This document shows, one piece after another, positions 4,891-35,970 of a stretch of 40,601 bases of DNA (positions are counted from its first letter, which is position 1; the number at the start of each line of letters is the position of its first letter). This stretch comes from an uncultured Clostridia bacterium (lineage in GTDB: Bacteria; Bacillota; Dehalobacteriia; UBA4068), in contig CALYAP010000045.1 in NCBI GenBank assembly GCA_944393575.1, positions 1-40,601 of the forward strand, written 5' to 3'. A program made the translations under genes and the position numbers. The notes below the pieces were generated by a model, which ran no database searches, was not told the origin of the DNA, and saw only the letters and a program-made list of their open reading frames with translations.

Positions 4891-6426
4891 ATGACTAAAA
4901 GACTATTTGCCGGTGCTATTTTAGCTATAGTAATGCTGTTTGGGGTTTCAGCCTCTGCTTTAGCAGCAAATACATATGCCGATACCATTGGCCATTGGGC
5001 GGAAGAAGCCATAATTGAATGGAGTGGAGAAAATGTCCTCAATGGTTATAATGGCAATTTCCGTCCCGATGATAGTATTACCAGAGGTGAAATGGCGGCT
5101 ATCTTGAACCGCATTATGCAGTATAGTGAGATATCTAGCAATACTTTTGCTGACCTAGATAATAATGCTTGGTATACCGATGCTATTTTGCGGGCTAATG
5201 CTGCTGGCGTTATGCTAGGTGATGAAACTGGAATGCGTCCCCAGGATCCTATTATTCGTCAAGAGGCTCTTGTGATGATTGCCCGTGCTTTGGGATTAGA
5301 AAATTTATCTTCTAGTACCCCTTTGCCTTTTAATGATAGCAGCTCTATCTCCTCATGGGCTGTTAATGCTATTTCTGTTATGTATGAAAAAGGGTATATC
5401 GATTGGGCCGGAACTGATTCCTTCAATCCCGATACCCCTATTACCAGGGCAGAGGTTGTAGCTACCTTGGATAATATCATTGACAATATGTGGCGGAGTA
5501 ATGGTCTTTATTGCGATTATATTGATGGCAGCGCTTTGATCAGCGGTACTAAGGTTTACCTACACAATTCGTATATCAATGGCGATGTTATTATTGGTGG
5601 CGGCGCTCAAAGGGTAGTTATTGATAATTGCATCGTCACTGGCAGCATTATCAATGTTGGCAATGCTGAGGTAACAGTGCTCGATCAAGACAGCGCTCCA
5701 GTAAGTACCTTCTATTTTGGCGATTATGATATCACTGTTCTTCCTGGGGTTGCTGAGAACAATCTTTCCGCTTTCTACTTTGCTCAAGAAAATGGACGTA
5801 CTATTTATACTGATCCGGCTATAGAAACACGTAGCGGCATTGATATCTCGGAGTGGCAGGGAGATATTGATTGGGCAAGAGTAGCCGATGATGATATCGA
5901 TTTTGCTATTATCCGTTTAGGATATCGTGGTTATACTGAAGGTAAGTTGAATCTGGATGTCAACTTTATCGATAATATTGAAGAAGCTCTTGATAGTGGC
6001 TTAGATGTTGGCGTCTATTTCTTCTCCCAGGCTATAACAGAACAAGAAGCTATTGAAGAAGCCCAGATGTGTATTGAGTATTTGCGTAATTATGATATTA
6101 CTTATCCGGTAGTATTTGACTGGGAGACAGTTAATAGCGCTAGCGCTCGGACGAATAACATCGATGGCACGGTACTGACTAATTGCGCAATTGCTTTTTG
6201 TGAAACGATCGAAGCTGCCGGTTATGATGCCATGATCTATGCTAATAAAGAGTTATCGCTCCTAACTTTGGATTTAAGCCGTTTGACTGATTATCCTTTC
6301 TGGTTTGCTGGTTACACTACTTATCCTGAATTTTACTATGGTTTTGATATGTGGCAATATACTTCTGATGGTTCTGTTGCCGGTATTGAAGAACGTGTTG
6401 ATATGAATATTGAGTTTATTTATTAG
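4891..6426 (+). CDS. S-layer-anchored GH25 cell-wall hydrolase
   Basis: This 511-residue secreted muramidase is predicted. A signal peptide covers about residues 1-25 (AFA/ALA-type end at ASALAA). Three SLH domains follow at about 27-75, 87-135 and 146-200, each with the HWA..AI..W and TRGE-like motifs that bind secondary cell-wall polymer. A linker rich in I/V/G/N repeats (about 205-290) may form a small beta-helix. A GH25 lysozyme domain fills about 315-511, with the entry motif GIDISEWQG and the catalytic FDWE pair. It would sit on the cell surface and cleave the peptidoglycan glycan chain, probably during wall turnover. A TATAAT -10 box lies at 4852-4857 but its -35 is poor. The ribosome site is AGGGG at 4876-4880. 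Confidence 0.93.
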   Translation: MTKRLFAGAILAIVMLFGVSASALAANTYADTIGHWAEEAIIEWSGENVLNGYNGNFRPDDSITRGEMAAILNRIMQYSEISSNTFADLDNNAWYTDAILRANAAGVMLGDETGMRPQDPIIRQEALVMIARALGLENLSSSTPLPFNDSSSISSWAVNAISVMYEKGYIDWAGTDSFNPDTPITRAEVVATLDNIIDNMWRSNGLYCDYIDGSALISGTKVYLHNSYINGDVIIGGGAQRVVIDNCIVTGSIINVGNAEVTVLDQDSAPVSTFYFGDYDITVLPGVAENNLSAFYFAQENGRTIYTDPAIETRSGIDISEWQGDIDWARVADDDIDFAIIRLGYRGYTEGKLNLDVNFIDNIEEALDSGLDVGVYFFSQAITEQEAIEEAQMCIEYLRNYDITYPVVFDWETVNSASARTNNIDGTVLTNCAIAFCETIEAAGYDAMIYANKELSLLTLDLSRLTDYPFWFAGYTTYPEFYYGFDMWQYTSDGSVAGIEERVDMNIEFIY

Positions 6427-10163: not shown

Positions 10164-10919
10164 TTAGGAGGTCATTTTTTCTTTGATGATTGCTAGGGCC
10201 TTTTTCTCTAGCCGTGATATTTGCACCTGAGATATAGAAAGCTCTTTAGCTAAGACAGCTTGGGTTTTTTCTTCAAAATAGCGGCCGCGAATAATATAGG
10301 CCAGCCGATCTGGCAGCTCTTCCAGCATCTTGGCCATATTAAGACGTTCCACCATCTGTTCGTTATCATCTACTGATAGGGCTTGAAGAGTGTCTTCTTT
10401 ACGATCACTATCACCGTTATTATTAGCCAATAGATCAGTGATCGAGATGATCGGCCGCATGGCTTCTGTGGCAGCCAACACTTGTTCAGAGGAGATATGG
10501 CATTCTTTGACCAGTGTCTGTAGGTCTGGCTCTTGTCCTAATTGCTGTCTAAGCTCACGTCTTCGCCTTTCGATCATTAACGCCTGTTCTTTGAGCGTTC
10601 TGCTAATTCCAATTGGCCGGTCATCCCGTAAATAACGCTTGATTTCGCCCATGATTAAAGGGACTGCGTAAGTTGAAAAACAGACGCCATAGGAAAAATC
10701 AAATTTATCAATGGCTTTGAGCAGACCAATACAGCCAACTTGGAAGAGATCTTCACGGTCATGTCCCAGTTCGGTAAAGCGGCGCACAATGCTATGTACT
10801 AAGGCCAGATTATTGGTAACTAATTGCTCTTTTGCTGAAAAATCGCCATTTTGGGCTGCTTTAATCAGGCAGTAGACTTCGTCTTCCGCCATCGGTTGGT
10901 AAGCATGTTCGCTACTCAT
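10164..10919 (-). CDS. sigF: Sporulation sigma factor F
   Basis: Sigma-F (251 residues) directs early forespore transcription. Region 2 shows EDLFQVGCIGLLKAIDKFD and FSTYAVPLIMGEIKRYLRDD. Region 3 has EPDLQTLVKECHIS. Region 4 ends with the helix-turn-helix KTQAVLAKELSISQVQISRLEKKAL. The order spoIIAA-spoIIAB-sigF identifies it among the sporulation sigma factors. It starts six bases after spoIIAB with no clear ribosome site, so it probably depends on coupling from spoIIAB. That would tie sigma-F level to its inhibitor. Confidence 0.96.
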   Translation of the reverse strand: MSSEHAYQPMAEDEVYCLIKAAQNGDFSAKEQLVTNNLALVHSIVRRFTELGHDREDLFQVGCIGLLKAIDKFDFSYGVCFSTYAVPLIMGEIKRYLRDDRPIGISRTLKEQALMIERRRRELRQQLGQEPDLQTLVKECHISSEQVLAATEAMRPIISITDLLANNNGDSDRKEDTLQALSVDDNEQMVERLNMAKMLEELPDRLAYIIRGRYFEEKTQAVLAKELSISQVQISRLEKKALAIIKEKMTS

Positions 10920-10925
10920 AGCAGT

Positions 10926-11411
10926 TTAAGACAGCTTTTTGGTTAAGGTAACGGTGGTACCGCATTTGGGAATGCTAGCCACTTCCACCTTATCCATAAA
11001 AGAGTGCATGAAGGCAAAACCCAGCCCCATTCGGTCTTGATCTTGGGAGAAATGAGGCTTCATCGCCTCTTCAATGTCTTCGATGCCCACTCCATCGTCA
11101 TGAATGGTGATAATCAGCTCATTGTCAGTTAATTCCATTGACATCTCAACCCAGCATTCCCGGTCATTTTGATATCCATGAATGATAGCATTAGAGACAG
11201 CCTCTGAGACCGCTACCTTTATCTCATCTAGTTCTGCCAGAGTCATATCACGTTCCGAGACGATAGCTGAAGCCAATAGGCGTGCTAAAGCTACGTTTTC
11301 ACTGCGGCTTTTAAAAGTAAGTTTGATTTGATTATTTTTGTTTTCTGCATTTGGTAAATTTATTTTTTTAGCTTGACTGCTGTCTAGCGTGCATTGCTCT
11401 TTATCGCTCAT
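10926..11411 (-). CDS. spoIIAB: Anti-sigma F factor / SpoIIAA kinase
   Basis: SpoIIAB is a GHKL-fold serine kinase that holds sigma-F inactive and phosphorylates SpoIIAA. The N-box SEAVSNAIIHGY and the G1 box DDGVGI are evident; the ATP lid is DRMGLGF, and the end is CGTTVTLTK. At 161 residues it is about 15-20 longer than usual because of a polar N-terminal extension of about 28 residues before the conserved start of the fold. I place the start at ATG 11411, six bases after a GGAGG site and overlapping the spoIIAA stop as TGATG. A GTG three bases upstream is also possible. Confidence 0.96.
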   Translation of the reverse strand: MSDKEQCTLDSSQAKKINLPNAENKNNQIKLTFKSRSENVALARLLASAIVSERDMTLAELDEIKVAVSEAVSNAIIHGYQNDRECWVEMSMELTDNELIITIHDDGVGIEDIEEAMKPHFSQDQDRMGLGFAFMHSFMDKVEVASIPKCGTTVTLTKKLS

Positions 11412-11764
11412 CACATTCCCTCCTTGGTATATTTGACTGAAACAGGCTTATCTATATCAATTATTCGGTGTAGCCCAGATGCGGTCAGCAAACGGTAGAC
11501 CTGTTCATGGGGATGGGTAATGATGATTTTGCCACCCATGGGTTCTAATTCCCGATACCGGCCCAAGATAACGCCTAGCCCCGAACTATCAATAAAAGTG
11601 ATTTGCGAAAAATCCAGCCAGAGCATCCTGCTGCCGCTTTTATGTAATCCTTCTATAATAGTTTCCTTAAATTCATCGGCACATGCCATGTCTAACTCTC
11701 CCTTGGGCTGGAGATAAAGCCATTCTTTATTTTGATATTTTTTTAGTTTGCTTATTATTTCCAT
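11411..11764 (-). CDS. spoIIAA: Anti-sigma F factor antagonist
   Basis: SpoIIAA is a 117-residue STAS-domain protein. When dephosphorylated it strips SpoIIAB from sigma-F. The phospho-site region FIDSSGLGVILGRY is conserved with Bacillus, and the first Ser of DSSG is the expected SpoIIAB target. The start is ATG 11764, placed by an AAGAGG site. A TTG further upstream in frame has no support. It is the first gene of the operon. The SpoIIE phosphatase that would complete the switch is not in this window. Confidence 0.97.
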   Translation of the reverse strand: MEIISKLKKYQNKEWLYLQPKGELDMACADEFKETIIEGLHKSGSRMLWLDFSQITFIDSSGLGVILGRYRELEPMGGKIIITHPHEQVYRLLTASGLHRIIDIDKPVSVKYTKEGM

Positions 11765-11796
11765 TTTTATCCTCTTTATCAAAAGGCTTTGACAGG

Positions 11797-11826
11797 AATT
11801 TCTGGTTTAGCCAATTTCTTTCCTGC
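11797..11826 (-). promoter_or_regulatory. Sigma-H-like promoter of spoIIA
   Basis: On the minus strand GCAGGAAAG (11826-11818) and CCAGAAATT (11805-11797) are 12 bases apart. The sigma-H consensus is RNAGGAWWW, 11-12 bases, RNNGAATWW. The match is strong in the AGGAAA core and GAA of the -10, with mismatches at three outer positions. spoIIA is sigma-H dependent in Bacillus, which agrees. The expected start is near 11790, about 25 bases before spoIIAA. Confidence 0.55.
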
Positions 11827-11901
11827 CGCGAAAATTGGGAAATAAACGCACTATAAGACATACGATACTAATTTGCGCCAAAAAAATGTCCGTCATTTCC
11901 C

Positions 11902-13254
11902 ATGAGAAATCAGCTAACTTTTGCGAATGCTATATTTGCGGATGCAGTGAAAGAGAACAAGAAGGGAGGGAAAAAAATTAATAAAGCTAAGCATTTTGAA
12001 CGCATTATCGGACTTGCTCTAGCGGTAGTGATTTGTGCTTTATCGGCTTTTAATATTCTGTTTTATGATATTATGTCGATGGACAAAAAACAGACTGTTC
12101 GGGCAGGTGCAGATATCAGCATTCCCGAAACGATTTTTGGTGATAGGGTAACTGCGGTCATTAGTGATGGTATGGAAATTGGCAGCATAACAGCAACCGC
12201 TGATTATAGCGACCAGTCCCTTGATAGTGATACCAATAGCTATGATGCAGTTATCAATTTAGACGGTCTGCCACTAAAAGAAATTGTTGTCGAAGAAACT
12301 GAGACTATCATGGTGCAGCCAGGTGGTCAGTCCATTGGTATCCTGCTGCAAACTGATGGCGTTAGCATCGTCGGTTTCTCACCAGTGATAACTGAAGATG
12401 GCAGTACCGTTAACCCTGCTTCTGATGCTGGATTAGTTACTGGCGATTTTATCACTAGTATTAATGGGCAAAAGATCGATACCAATGCCCAAATCGCAGC
12501 TATCATTGATGAGGCAGGGCAGGCAGGAGAGAGCTGCGAAATTGTCTATCTGCGCAACGGCATCCGTCATACGCTTAATATTGAACCTCTTTTCTGCACA
12601 GACAGTCAAACCTGGCGCATTGGACTCTATGTCCGTGATAATACTGCAGGTATCGGTACTTTAAGCTTTTATGAGCCTGAGTCTGGAGTTTATGGCGCTT
12701 TAGGCCATGAGGTGCCAGATCTGCAATATGGCGTCAGTGGGGAGAAAAAAGGTACCATTGTCAGGGCTGCTGTCCAAGGCATCAAGATTGGCGCTTCCGG
12801 CGACCCCGGTGAAAAATTAGGCGTCTTTTTGGACGAAGACTGGACAGGTGATATCCGTACCAACAGCACCTTTGGTATCTACGGTGTGCTTGATAGTCCT
12901 CCGGAAGTCCAGTATACGGACGAATTGGTTCCGGTAGCTATGATCGATGAAGTACAGACCGGACCGGCAGAGATTTATACTGTTTTAGATGGTGAGACTA
13001 TCCAGTCTTTTGATATTGAAATCGTTAAACTAATGCCTGGATATAAGCTCACTGGTAAAGGTATGATTATCAAAGTAACTGATCCAGAGTTACTAGAGAA
13101 AACTGGTGGTATTGTCCAGGGTATGAGTGGTAGCCCCATTATCCAAAACGGCATGTTTGTGGGTGCGGTTACTCATGTTTTCATCAACGATCCAACTCAG
13201 GGCTATGGCTGTTTTGGTGAGTGGATGATGGAGGATGCAGGCCTTTGTGATTAA
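11902..13254 (+). CDS. spoIVB: SpoIVB signalling serine protease
   Basis: SpoIVB is made in the forespore and secreted across its membrane to trigger pro-sigma-K processing. A membrane anchor lies at about residues 37-57. A PDZ domain (about 130-215) includes SPASDAGLVTGDFITSINGQ-like residues. The S55 peptidase domain has GALGHEV (His) and the active-site Ser motif GMSGSP (407-412), ending in GYGCFGEWM. The open frame from ATG 11902 gives 450 residues but has no ribosome site. A perfect GGGAGGG lies inside the frame at 11964-11970, six bases before ATT 11977. Starting there gives 425 residues, about the usual SpoIVB length. I see no convincing sigma-F or sigma-G promoter, only a GATACTA at 11864-11870 that resembles their -10. 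Confidence 0.95.
   Translation: MRNQLTFANAIFADAVKENKKGGKKINKAKHFERIIGLALAVVICALSAFNILFYDIMSMDKKQTVRAGADISIPETIFGDRVTAVISDGMEIGSITATADYSDQSLDSDTNSYDAVINLDGLPLKEIVVEETETIMVQPGGQSIGILLQTDGVSIVGFSPVITEDGSTVNPASDAGLVTGDFITSINGQKIDTNAQIAAIIDEAGQAGESCEIVYLRNGIRHTLNIEPLFCTDSQTWRIGLYVRDNTAGIGTLSFYEPESGVYGALGHEVPDLQYGVSGEKKGTIVRAAVQGIKIGASGDPGEKLGVFLDEDWTGDIRTNSTFGIYGVLDSPPEVQYTDELVPVAMIDEVQTGPAEIYTVLDGETIQSFDIEIVKLMPGYKLTGKGMIIKVTDPELLEKTGGIVQGMSGSPIIQNGMFVGAVTHVFINDPTQGYGCFGEWMMEDAGLCD
11964..11970 (+). promoter_or_regulatory. Internal Shine-Dalgarno before ATT codon in spoIVB
   Basis: GGGAGGG is the strongest ribosome site in the spoIVB frame. Six bases later the in-frame codon is ATT (11977-11979). 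There is no ATG, GTG or TTG at any workable distance downstream. The upstream ATG 11902 and in-frame GTG 11947 lack ribosome sites. ATT is a rare but known initiator (infC in enteric bacteria). A base error changing ATG or TTG to ATT is the alternative. Confidence 0.55.
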
Positions 13255-13287
13255 TCAGCTATATTATAAGCTGAATTAACACTACAA

Positions 13288-13330
13288 ATTCCGACAATAA
13301 TACCCGAATTTTCGGGTATTATGTCGGAAT
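13288..13330. other. Long hairpin with 0A-box-like arms, spoIVB-spo0A gap
   Basis: Bases 13288-13296 and 13298-13308 pair with 13322-13330 and 13311-13321, giving a 20-bp stem with one bulged A and a 2-base loop. No T run follows on the plus strand (AAAAAGG instead), so it is not a classic terminator for spoIVB, though it may still slow polymerase. The two outer arms read TTCCGACA and TGTCGGAA, each one base from the Spo0A box TGTCGAA in inverted orientation. It lies about 28 bases upstream of the sigma-H-like -35 of spo0A, so an autoregulatory site is possible. Confidence 0.6.
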
Positions 13331-13357
13331 AAAAAGGTATATTACTGGGGTTTTACG

Positions 13358-13386
13358 GAAGGATTTGGAAAAAGTGAAGCGAAAAC
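13358..13386 (+). promoter_or_regulatory. Sigma-H-like promoter of spo0A
   Basis: GAAGGATTT (13358-13366) matches the sigma-H -35 RNAGGAWWW at every position. After 11 bases, AGCGAAAAC (13378-13386) matches RNNGAATWW at seven of nine positions. Bacillus spo0A has a sigma-H promoter used at sporulation onset, so this fits. The leader to the start codon would be about 70 bases. Confidence 0.6.
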
Positions 13387-13464
13387 TTAAAAACATAAGG
13401 CCTTAGAAAAACAAAACTCATAAATTAAGCAAATACTAAAAAATAAAGAGAAAGCGGGATGCAT

Positions 13465-14226
13465 ATGGAACAGACCAAGAAGATTCTCATAGCTGATGAT
13501 GACAAACTTTTCTCCGAAGCTTTGGAGGAATATTTTTCTGAATTGGATAGTTATCAGGTATGCGGAGTAGCCGATAATGGACAAAAGACCCTAGAAATGA
13601 TTGAAAAACATAATCCTGATGTAGTGATTTTGGATTTAGTGATGCCGAATCTAGATGGTATTGGTGTTTTAGAAAAAATTAAAAATATGGAATTGCCAAC
13701 AACGCCGCAAATACTTTTTATTACTTCTTTTGCTCAGCCTAATGTTACTAAAAAAGCGATGGAGCTGGGAGCGGCTTATTATATGATGAAGCCCTTTGAT
13801 TTAGATACCCTGGAAGCTAGGATCAGGCAGATCAGTGAATTTGATGATGAGATCACCAGCCTACCCAAAGCATCTACCTTGGAGCTTGATATTACCCGTA
13901 TTCTTCATCAGATGGGTGTACCTGCCCATGTTAAGGGCTATCAATATCTGCGCGATGCTATTGTAATGGTTACCGAGGAAGCCAATCTGATGGGAGCAGT
14001 CACCAAAGAATTATACCCAATGATTGCTGAAAAATATAATACCACTGCTTCCAGAGTAGAACGGGCTATTCGTCATGCCATTGAGTTAGCTTGGGATCGG
14101 GGTAATGTGGATTTGATGAACCGTTATTTTGGGTATACGATTAATATTGAGCGGGGAAAGCCGACTAATTCTGAGTTTATCGCTATGATTGCTGATAAAT
14201 TGAGAATGGGGGAAAAAATGGCTTAA
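13465..14226 (+). CDS. spo0A: Sporulation master regulator Spo0A
   Basis: Spo0A is the phosphorylated response regulator that commits the cell to sporulation. The receiver domain has the acidic triad ADDD (11-13), phospho-acceptor Asp57 in [12 protein letters not shown], and the ITSF and KPFD switch residues. A linker leads to the Spo0A-specific DNA-binding domain (about 145-253) with the recognition stretch [24 protein letters not shown] choose ATG 13465 because AAAGCGGG ends six bases before it. ATG 13459 would add two residues but abuts the ribosome site. The gene follows spoIVB, as in most spore formers. Confidence 0.98.
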
Positions 14227-34117: not shown

Positions 34118-34147
34118 GCATATTTAGCCTTTCTTAACGCATAGTTT
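34118..34147 (+). promoter_or_regulatory. Sigma-E-like promoter of the cortex-lysin pair
   Basis: GCATATT (34118-34124) matches the sigma-E -35 KMATATT at all seven positions. After 15 bases, CATAGTTT (34140-34147) matches six of eight positions of CATACAHT. Sigma-E works in the mother cell, where cortex-lytic SleC is made, which supports both the promoter and the gene assignment. The predicted start is about 30 bases before ATG 34184. Confidence 0.6.
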
Positions 34148-34183
34148 GAGTTATGACGTAGAATGTAAGATAGGTGTGTGCCG

Positions 34184-34570
34184 ATGACTACATACTATAA
34201 TGAAGAAGAGTATCAAGATTTTTTAAATGAATATACCGGTAGAGGCGATTTGAAAATTCACTGCTTCCAAGTAGGAGGTGCCTTACCGGTTGAAGGAGCT
34301 ACTGTCACGGTTCATAAGTTGATTGGGAATGACATGGTGAAAATAGGCGAAGGAATAACGGATATCAGCGGAATTGTCGAATTCGAAGATTTGCCTTGTC
34401 GGGCAGTGGAGTATTCTTTGGTTCCTAATGCAGTTCCTTACGCTGGGGTTTTTTATGAGATAATTCTTAGACATTCGGATTTTGGCGTTATTTTTGATCG
34501 GGTAGCTGTGTTTGATGATGTCACCACAGTTTACCGCGAGGTTTATGAACCGCCAGCAGCTATTAATTAA
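34184..34570 (+). CDS. SleC pro-domain-like protein (separate gene)
   Basis: This 128-residue protein has a predicted all-beta fold and no signal peptide. Segments such as LPVEGATVTVHKL, GEGITDISGIVEFEDLP and YSLVPNAVPYAGVFYEI resemble a transthyretin/Cna-B-like domain. From memory they match the N-terminal region of clostridial SleC (pattern: beta-rich repeat, SDSSGQ turn, P.P...Y.V.V...GY). In SleC that region is joined to the lytic domain and is removed by Csp proteases. Here it is a separate gene, 44 bases before the lytic partner. The start is ATG 34184, seven bases after AGGTG; a GTG at 34178 is possible. Confidence 0.72.
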   Translation: MTTYYNEEEYQDFLNEYTGRGDLKIHCFQVGGALPVEGATVTVHKLIGNDMVKIGEGITDISGIVEFEDLPCRAVEYSLVPNAVPYAGVFYEIILRHSDFGVIFDRVAVFDDVTTVYREVYEPPAAIN

Positions 34571-34614
34571 AGCAGCATGAAAGATTCAATATTGCCGGCA
34601 GGAGGAATCAGTAT

Positions 34615-35970
34615 ATGGTTGTTATTATCCCAGAATCAATAACGGTTCATCTTGGCGCTCCTAGTGAGGACGCTCCGAACGTAACCGTGCCGTTTATCGA
34701 CTACATCAAAAATGTCGCCTCAGGAGAAATTTATCCTACTTGGCCGGAAGCTGCTATCAGAGCTAATATTTATGCACAGATAACTTTTGCCCTTAACCGT
34801 ATTTATAATGAATGGTATCCCAGCCAGGGATATGATTTTGATATTACTTCTGTTACCCAGTATGATCAGACGTATTCGCCAGACCGGGAAATTTTTGCTA
34901 ATATTTCTGCTATTGTCGATGAGATCTTTAATAGTTATGTGGTTTTGGAAGGGAGTGTTGCACCATATTTTACAGCTTATTGCAATGGTACTACTACAGT
35001 TTGCGCCGGTCTTTCGCAATGGGGTACGGTAGAGCTTGCCGAACAGGGATTGGGAGCCTTGGATATCCTGAAGTATTATTATGGCTCTAATATTGAATTG
35101 GTGGAAGATGCTCCCACCGGGGAGAATCTGCCATCTTTCCCTGGTTTTAATATTGAGATGGGCAGCATCAGTGAAGAAGTACATATTATCCAGCGGCAAT
35201 TGAATAGGATTAGGGAGAATTTCCCGGCTATCCCAGTCATTTCAGAAGAGGATGGTATTTTTGATGCTGAGACTGAGGCGGCAGTTATGGCTTTTCAAGA
35301 AATTTTCGATCTGCCTGTTACTGGTATAATAGATCGAGCAACTTGGTATTCTATTAAAAGGCGTTATGTCGCAGTTAAACGTTTATGCGAACTGATTAGC
35401 GAAGGCTTAACTATTTCTGAAGCACAAAGAATTTTCCCTGCTGTCTTGCAGGAGGGAGATACTAGTAGCGGAGTGCGGGCCTTGCAATATTTTTTAGCTT
35501 TTATTGCTTATTTCGATAATAATATTCCTCAAATATCGATTACCGGAACTTTTGATGCTAATACTGCTAATGCAGTAAGGCAATTTCAGAGTCAGCAAGG
35601 CCTCACTGTAGATGGGGTTGTCGACCGTGTTGATTGGCAGGAATTGTTGAATACCTATAATTCGATCTTGGCTGATTTGCCAAGCGAATACCAGGAGTAT
35701 GCCTCGCTCATTTACCCGGGATACTTTTTAACATCAGGAGAGGAATCACCAGATGTAATAACATTACAAAATGCTATCAACAGGATTGCTGCTACCGACA
35801 GCAGTGTGCCGACCTTAGAAGTAACTGGAATTTACGATGAAGCTACTGAGAATGCAGTAAGGACATTGCAGTGGCAGTCAGGGTTGCCAGTTAATGGTGC
35901 GGTGGGGCCGATTTTATGGCAAACAATTATGGACCGTAGTGTGGGAGAGTCATCCGCAGCGGGTGCTTAA
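34615..35970 (+). CDS. sleC: SleC-like spore cortex lytic enzyme, three PG-binding repeats
   Basis: This 451-residue protein begins with the stretch IPESITVHLGAP, then VPFIDYIKNVASGEIYPTWP. These are hallmarks, as I recall them, of the SpoIID/LytB-type lytic transglycosylase domain of clostridial SleC. Glu38 in ASGEIYP is the likely catalytic acid. YCNGTTTVCAGLSQWGT (122-138) and ILKYYYGSNI (151-160) complete that domain. Three peptidoglycan-binding_1 repeats follow at about 184-250, 281-347 and 376-440, where known SleC usually has one. There is no signal peptide and no pro-domain. The gene has its own AGGAGG site. It should degrade spore cortex at germination. How it stays inactive before then is unclear, since the pro-part is on another gene. 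Confidence 0.85.
   Translation: MVVIIPESITVHLGAPSEDAPNVTVPFIDYIKNVASGEIYPTWPEAAIRANIYAQITFALNRIYNEWYPSQGYDFDITSVTQYDQTYSPDREIFANISAIVDEIFNSYVVLEGSVAPYFTAYCNGTTTVCAGLSQWGTVELAEQGLGALDILKYYYGSNIELVEDAPTGENLPSFPGFNIEMGSISEEVHIIQRQLNRIRENFPAIPVISEEDGIFDAETEAAVMAFQEIFDLPVTGIIDRATWYSIKRRYVAVKRLCELISEGLTISEAQRIFPAVLQEGDTSSGVRALQYFLAFIAYFDNNIPQISITGTFDANTANAVRQFQSQQGLTVDGVVDRVDWQELLNTYNSILADLPSEYQEYASLIYPGYFLTSGEESPDVITLQNAINRIAATDSSVPTLEVTGIYDEATENAVRTLQWQSGLPVNGAVGPILWQTIMDRSVGESSAAGA

Follow-up and report, generated by a model that had tools for sequence, protein, structure and literature searches.

SleC is commonly presented as a zymogen that Csp proteases cut. The classical enzymes of C. difficile and C. 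perfringens are single chains that carry a pro segment and one peptidoglycan-binding repeat. In C. difficile, YabG cuts off the pre-sequence at an SRQS site, after R119, during sporulation (PMC6464247), and the PRO segment is the part removed by CspB at germination (PMC3567191). In Bacillus, SleB, a cortex lytic enzyme, has a separate partner encoded in the same operon, YpeB; the two need each other for stable incorporation, and YpeB may keep SleB inactive (PMC13393411). We found no description of a split SleC in the literature searched, the coverage of which excluded most subscription papers.

The stretch of DNA analyzed here (the window; 40,601 nt from an uncultured Clostridia bacterium) holds a locus in which SleC-like parts are distributed over two genes. 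The pair shares with classical SleC the pre-domain (in fold and in sequence), the SpoIID-like lytic domain and the order of these parts, and its second protein shares the first peptidoglycan-binding repeat; it differs in consisting of two chains rather than one, in having no pro segment and in having three binding repeats rather than one. A broad definition of SleC-like systems (pre-domain, lytic domain and binding repeat, in that order) thus describes the split pair.

Both genes are intact, distinct and on the same strand. ORF1 (34184..34570, plus strand, 128 aa; ATG at 34184, TAA at 34568–34570, with an alternative GTG start at 34178) encodes a stand-alone SleC pre-domain, and ORF2 (34615..35970, plus strand, 451 aa; ATG at 34615) a SleC-like lytic enzyme. 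The 44-nt gap between them (34571..34614, plus strand) contains an SD motif, AGGAGG, at 34600–34605, 9 nt before the ORF2 start. An earlier, sequence-only reading of this DNA had described two separate genes 44 bases apart with a ribosome site before the lytic gene, and the coordinates, sizes and motif that we re-read from the sequence agree with it; its argument that a lysin so divided cannot be activated by a single cut of one chain likewise stands, given two separate genes. It had also placed the genes behind a sigma-E-like promoter. A candidate motif is indeed present (34118..34147, plus strand; GCATATT-N15-CATAGTTT, elements at 34118 and 34140) but is suggestive only, in that its score against the consensus is matched by 1% of shuffles, and the motif is weakly enriched 5′ of the pairs of relatives, not consistently (at least 13 of 15 positions matching in 15 of 123). 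The locus is flanked by a divergent purA upstream and by a DtxR-type regulator, then feoA-feoA-feoB, downstream (named by eye). Elsewhere in the window, and also by eye, positions 10164–14226 carry an apparent spoIIAA-spoIIAB-sigF on the minus strand, then spoIVB and spo0A on the plus strand, which supports sporulation of the organism; positions 4891–6426 encode S-layer homology repeats fused to an apparent GH25 lysozyme-type domain.

ORF2 aligns with residues 218–476 of the C. difficile SleC precursor (PDB 9h68, E 3.7e-68). Its N-terminus (MVVIIPESITVHLG...) lies near the catalytic domain, the pro segment being absent, and no signal peptide is apparent by eye. The lytic domain (34615..35142, plus strand) shares its catalytic core fold with SpoIID/LytB lytic transglycosylases, with partial matches to PF08486 and TIGR02669, yet falls below the curated cut-offs (PF08486, E 2.9e-4, 21.8 bits against 23; TIGR02870, 29.2 against 234.75), and ORF2 was rejected as a SpoIID ortholog. 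An assignment to SleB/CwlJ was likewise rejected, there being no PF07486 (Hydrolase_2) match and only the binding repeats matching TIGR02869, below cut-off. Residues E38, C123 and C130 and a QWG motif are invariant across the ORF2 family, from which the active site appears intact. The three peptidoglycan-binding repeats noticed at first reading were recovered as three stretches of PG_binding_1 (Pfam E 1.1e-43), all on the plus strand: 35173..35349 (residues 187–245; PF01471), 35440..35646 (about residues 276–344; Pfam, NCBIfam and comparison with 9h68) and 35725..35931 (about residues 371–439; Pfam and comparison with 9h68). Also close to the pair is a set of long-fused SleC-like paralogs (600–840 aa; for example, at loci L149, L166, L168, L012, L013) that belong to the same clade, carry several repeats and lack the pro motif, and that differ from the pair in that their pre-domain is still fused and in lying mostly in genomes that also have classical SleC and Csp. 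The PRO motif (YPPKIPE or close) is present in 24/24 classical SleC proteins, in 0/9 long-fused proteins and in neither gene of 126 split pairs.

ORF1 is too diverged to be searched as a single sequence (phmmer returned nothing in the PDB, and nothing scored above cut-off in NCBIfam or Pfam), and a family profile was therefore used. This profile, which included two fused relatives, matched 9h68 residues 55–170 (E 2.8e-19), and a profile from split members only recovered the same domain inside fused proteins (E about 1e-15). An AlphaFold model of ORF1 (78 sequences, pLDDT 91.4) predicts a transthyretin/CnaB-like β-sandwich of seven strands with a short N-terminal helix; the top four Foldseek matches in the PDB were 9h68 chains C, B, A, and D, and transthyretin-like and CnaB folds are among the next. 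The suggested kinship of the first protein with the SleC N-terminus is thus borne out by profile and by fold. No membrane segment is apparent in ORF1 by eye.

Which part of that N-terminus ORF1 represents follows when 9h68 is aligned to a fused relative: the alignment shows ...SFSRQSELIFDI... and contains the SRQS site in 9h68; as SRQS is the cut site of C. difficile SleC, R176 of the 9h68 chain is native R119. ORF1 then maps to native residues about 1–113, the PRO segment starts at about residue 120 and ORF2 begins at about residue 161 (extents by alignment in this analysis). As judged from these alignments, ORF1 corresponds to the PRE-peptide of SleC and not to the short PRO segment cut by CspB. 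The separated part had been taken for the Csp-cut pro-region; that identification is rejected, ORF1 lying before the PRO segment, at the YabG-cut PRE-peptide, and the PRO motif being absent.

The split is not confined to this genome and is instead the rule in a large clade. A scan of GTDB species genomes, from which the best 80 loci ranked by similarity to the window were kept (a ranking that over-represents split forms), gave a separate upstream pre-domain ORF in 78 of the 80, the other two ending at a contig edge; one of the 78 is a congener already counted, and all 77 other scorable loci are split. The pair is contiguous in every locus except those interrupted by a contig end. Most of these loci come from Oscillospiraceae and other gut Clostridia; among the named carriers are Ructibacterium gallinarum (DSM 107454; locus L103), an Agathobaculum and Candidatus Avimonas, besides many Oscillospiraceae and several metagenome-assembled genomes (MAGs) labeled Bacilli or Erysipelotrichaceae. 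A class-wide draw of 391 genomes, the less biased sample, yielded the lytic domain in 63, of which 38 have the split form only. The two-gene order, proposed earlier as something to look for in related genomes, was recovered at 126 distinct loci, with all pairs adjacent, a median stop-to-start distance of 11 nt and an SD-like motif ahead of the second gene in 122. That a sequencing frameshift or a point mutation had divided one gene might be suspected from the existence of fused relatives (L012, L013) in the same family, but the same split recurs in independent assemblies of many species, with SD motifs of its own, and the pro segment itself is missing; we regard an artefact as refuted.

Both genes of the pair are under purifying selection: between congeners ORF1 has a pN of 0.18 against a pS of 0.76, and in two other pairs the pre-domain gene has a dN/dS of 0.06–0.14. 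ORF1 does diverge the faster (67% identity between congeners versus 88% for the lytic domain), as might be expected were it a remnant, or a separate structural protein of the spore, functionally unlinked to ORF2; with selection acting on it and 126/126 pairs adjacent in the same order, we consider such a disconnection very improbable. In one related family (L006, L008, L009, L010, L011), a third gene with apparent extra peptidoglycan-binding repeats lies downstream of the pair.

In trees built from the lytic domain and first binding repeat, classical SleC forms a single clade (99 SH-aLRT in one tree, 100/100 in another), and the split and long-fused proteins together occupy the opposite side. 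Membership in SleC, as claimed from sequence patterns, is accordingly half right: the enzyme is SleC-like by its match to 9h68 but belongs, at 100/100, to a sister subfamily and not to SleC proper. The variant of the SleC system seen here is genuine and conserved, and it is not classical SleC. The split proteins group together (80/97), and one origin of the split is likely. Split sequences from different lineages interleave, and the window's own family contains both split and fused forms (the latter L012 and L013), which suggests horizontal transfer. In the tree, pairs from MAGs labeled Bacilli/Erysipelotrichaceae (L085, L090, L094, L096, L101, L107) are neighbors of the window's pair, a position that points to horizontal transfer or to mislabeled bins.

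Genomes with classical SleC carry Csp, and often YabG; the split-only genomes sampled carry neither. Csp was detected using PF00082 and a profile built from G010, a fused relative in the window's own family with tandem Csp genes, whose Csp has CspB (4i0w) as its best PDB match; PF18425 (the CspB prodomain) was dropped as a detector, its control matches lying in Csp-less organisms and none exceeding the cut-off. The window genome (completeness 96.9%) has no subtilisin-family (S8, PF00082) protein, no PF18425 or Csp-profile match and no YabG (PF05582). Within the class sample (E 1e-30, three candidates scored per genome, MAGs being incomplete), Csp was found in 22/23 genomes with classical SleC, in 0/38 split-only genomes and in none without classical SleC; the corresponding counts for YabG are 14/23 and 0/38, its absence from 9/23 classical genomes meaning that it does not strictly define classical SleC. 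No Csp was found among the window's split-form relatives or in 49 named split genomes (one, Ructibacterium, shared with the class sample), where a single weak profile match (E 5.7e-9) is a 2587-aa generic subtilase. The search for cspBA that the sequence-only reading had recommended was therefore negative in the window genome and in all split-only genomes tested. As classical SleC is one clade, the association with Csp rests on few independent events.

One complete-looking genome of 1.5 Mb (G340; L192, L210) has classical SleC and YabG and no Csp match, its only subtilase being a distant 401-aa S8 protein (E 1.7e-12). Another (G238) carries split and classical SleC together, with Csp beside the classical copy. 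In two loci (L191 in G358 and L197 in G277), Csp and a complete pre-pro-SleC occupy one ORF, of 1067 and 1080 aa, respectively, joining the protease to its own zymogen substrate. Across the classical loci L186–L209, an R-Q/R-A site in the pre/pro linker is present in 13/14 YabG-positive and 0/9 YabG-negative genomes (Fisher 1.2e-5, kinship not corrected for), in agreement with the SRQS cut of C. difficile.

We consider it probable that this two-gene locus encodes a Csp-independent form of the SleC family that is split by nature, with ORF1 as a dedicated trans partner. Judged by sequence and gene content, neither protease is present here, the YabG cut of classical SleC being replaced by the gene boundary and the CspB cut dispensed with in the absence of the PRO segment. 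The mother cell probably produces both proteins together, and they would meet in trans; there ORF1 would most likely fold, deliver and/or restrain ORF2 until germination, much as YpeB does with SleB. That likeness would be one of working, a cortex lytic enzyme with a separate same-operon partner, the domains themselves being unrelated (PF07486 in SleB; PepSY with a membrane anchor in YpeB). The trigger would probably lie downstream of a GerA-type receptor and loss of dormancy rather than in a Csp cascade. Against this reading, other proteases could substitute, and the absence of the PRO motif need not follow from that of Csp, since motif-less long-fused paralogs often sit beside classical SleC and Csp.

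The restraint might instead be the whole of the matter, with ORF1 a removable inhibitor, as the sequence-only reading suggested first: it would occupy the lytic site in trans while the spore is dormant, and germination would degrade or displace it. The strict pairing of ORF1 with ORF2 favors such a role, as does the behavior of YpeB, which undergoes degradation at germination and has been proposed to keep SleB inactive (PMC13393411). In classical SleC, however, the pre-domain is already gone during sporulation while proSleC is still inactive, and a preproSleC with the YabG site deleted left germination unchanged (PMC6464247), both of which argue against the pre-domain as the inhibitory element in that enzyme. 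On these same grounds, the silence of classical SleC after pre-domain loss and unaltered germination when the YabG cut was blocked (PMC6464247), we favor chaperoning or delivery with possible restraint, and consider pure inhibition unlikely. When a long-fused relative was modeled as a full chain, the model matched 9h68 along its entire length with one displaced domain (TM about 0.70, rmsd 14 Å); as the pre-domain placement seen in 9h68 was not reproduced, this model does not position the docked pre-domain.

Whether the lysin acts at germination bears on a further alternative, in which ORF2 is a sporulation or cortex-remodeling hydrolase, ORF1 its chaperone, and another enzyme serves germination. 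Long-fused paralogs of the same clade do lie beside classical SleC and Csp in five genomes (G177, G311, G476, G481, G498), and SleB/CwlJ-type enzymes occur in 16/38 split-only genomes. Against this, the other 22/38 and the window genome have no SleB/CwlJ-type hydrolase (PF07486), which leaves these genomes with no SleC/SleB/CwlJ-type candidate for cortex lysis other than the pair (SleL-type enzymes lying outside the search), and we judge a remodeling role doubtful. The window genome has one gerA-gerC-gerB operon. Its sole GerC-type protein (L211:4064–4696, on contig C53), encoded between intact gerA and gerB, is 211 aa long and matches the N-terminal domain only, with no match to the usual GerC C-terminal domain.

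Returning to the split, Csp-independent form with ORF1 as trans partner, we tentatively extend it to gut spore-formers at large: Oscillospiraceae and relatives, and the window's lineage, may possess a non-zymogen cortex lysin that is silenced or installed by a pre-domain protein with no Csp/YabG step. The split is a natural experiment on the role of the SleC pre-domain, which is retained as a gene of its own without a protease needing to remove it. Should the split form be the cortex lysin at work in the many Oscillospiraceae and related gut spore-formers that have it, the rules of cortex lysis derived from C. difficile would not be transferable to them. With enzyme and pre-domain made as two proteins and both processing proteases missing, germination control in the window's organism and many of its gut relatives must differ from that of C. 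difficile.
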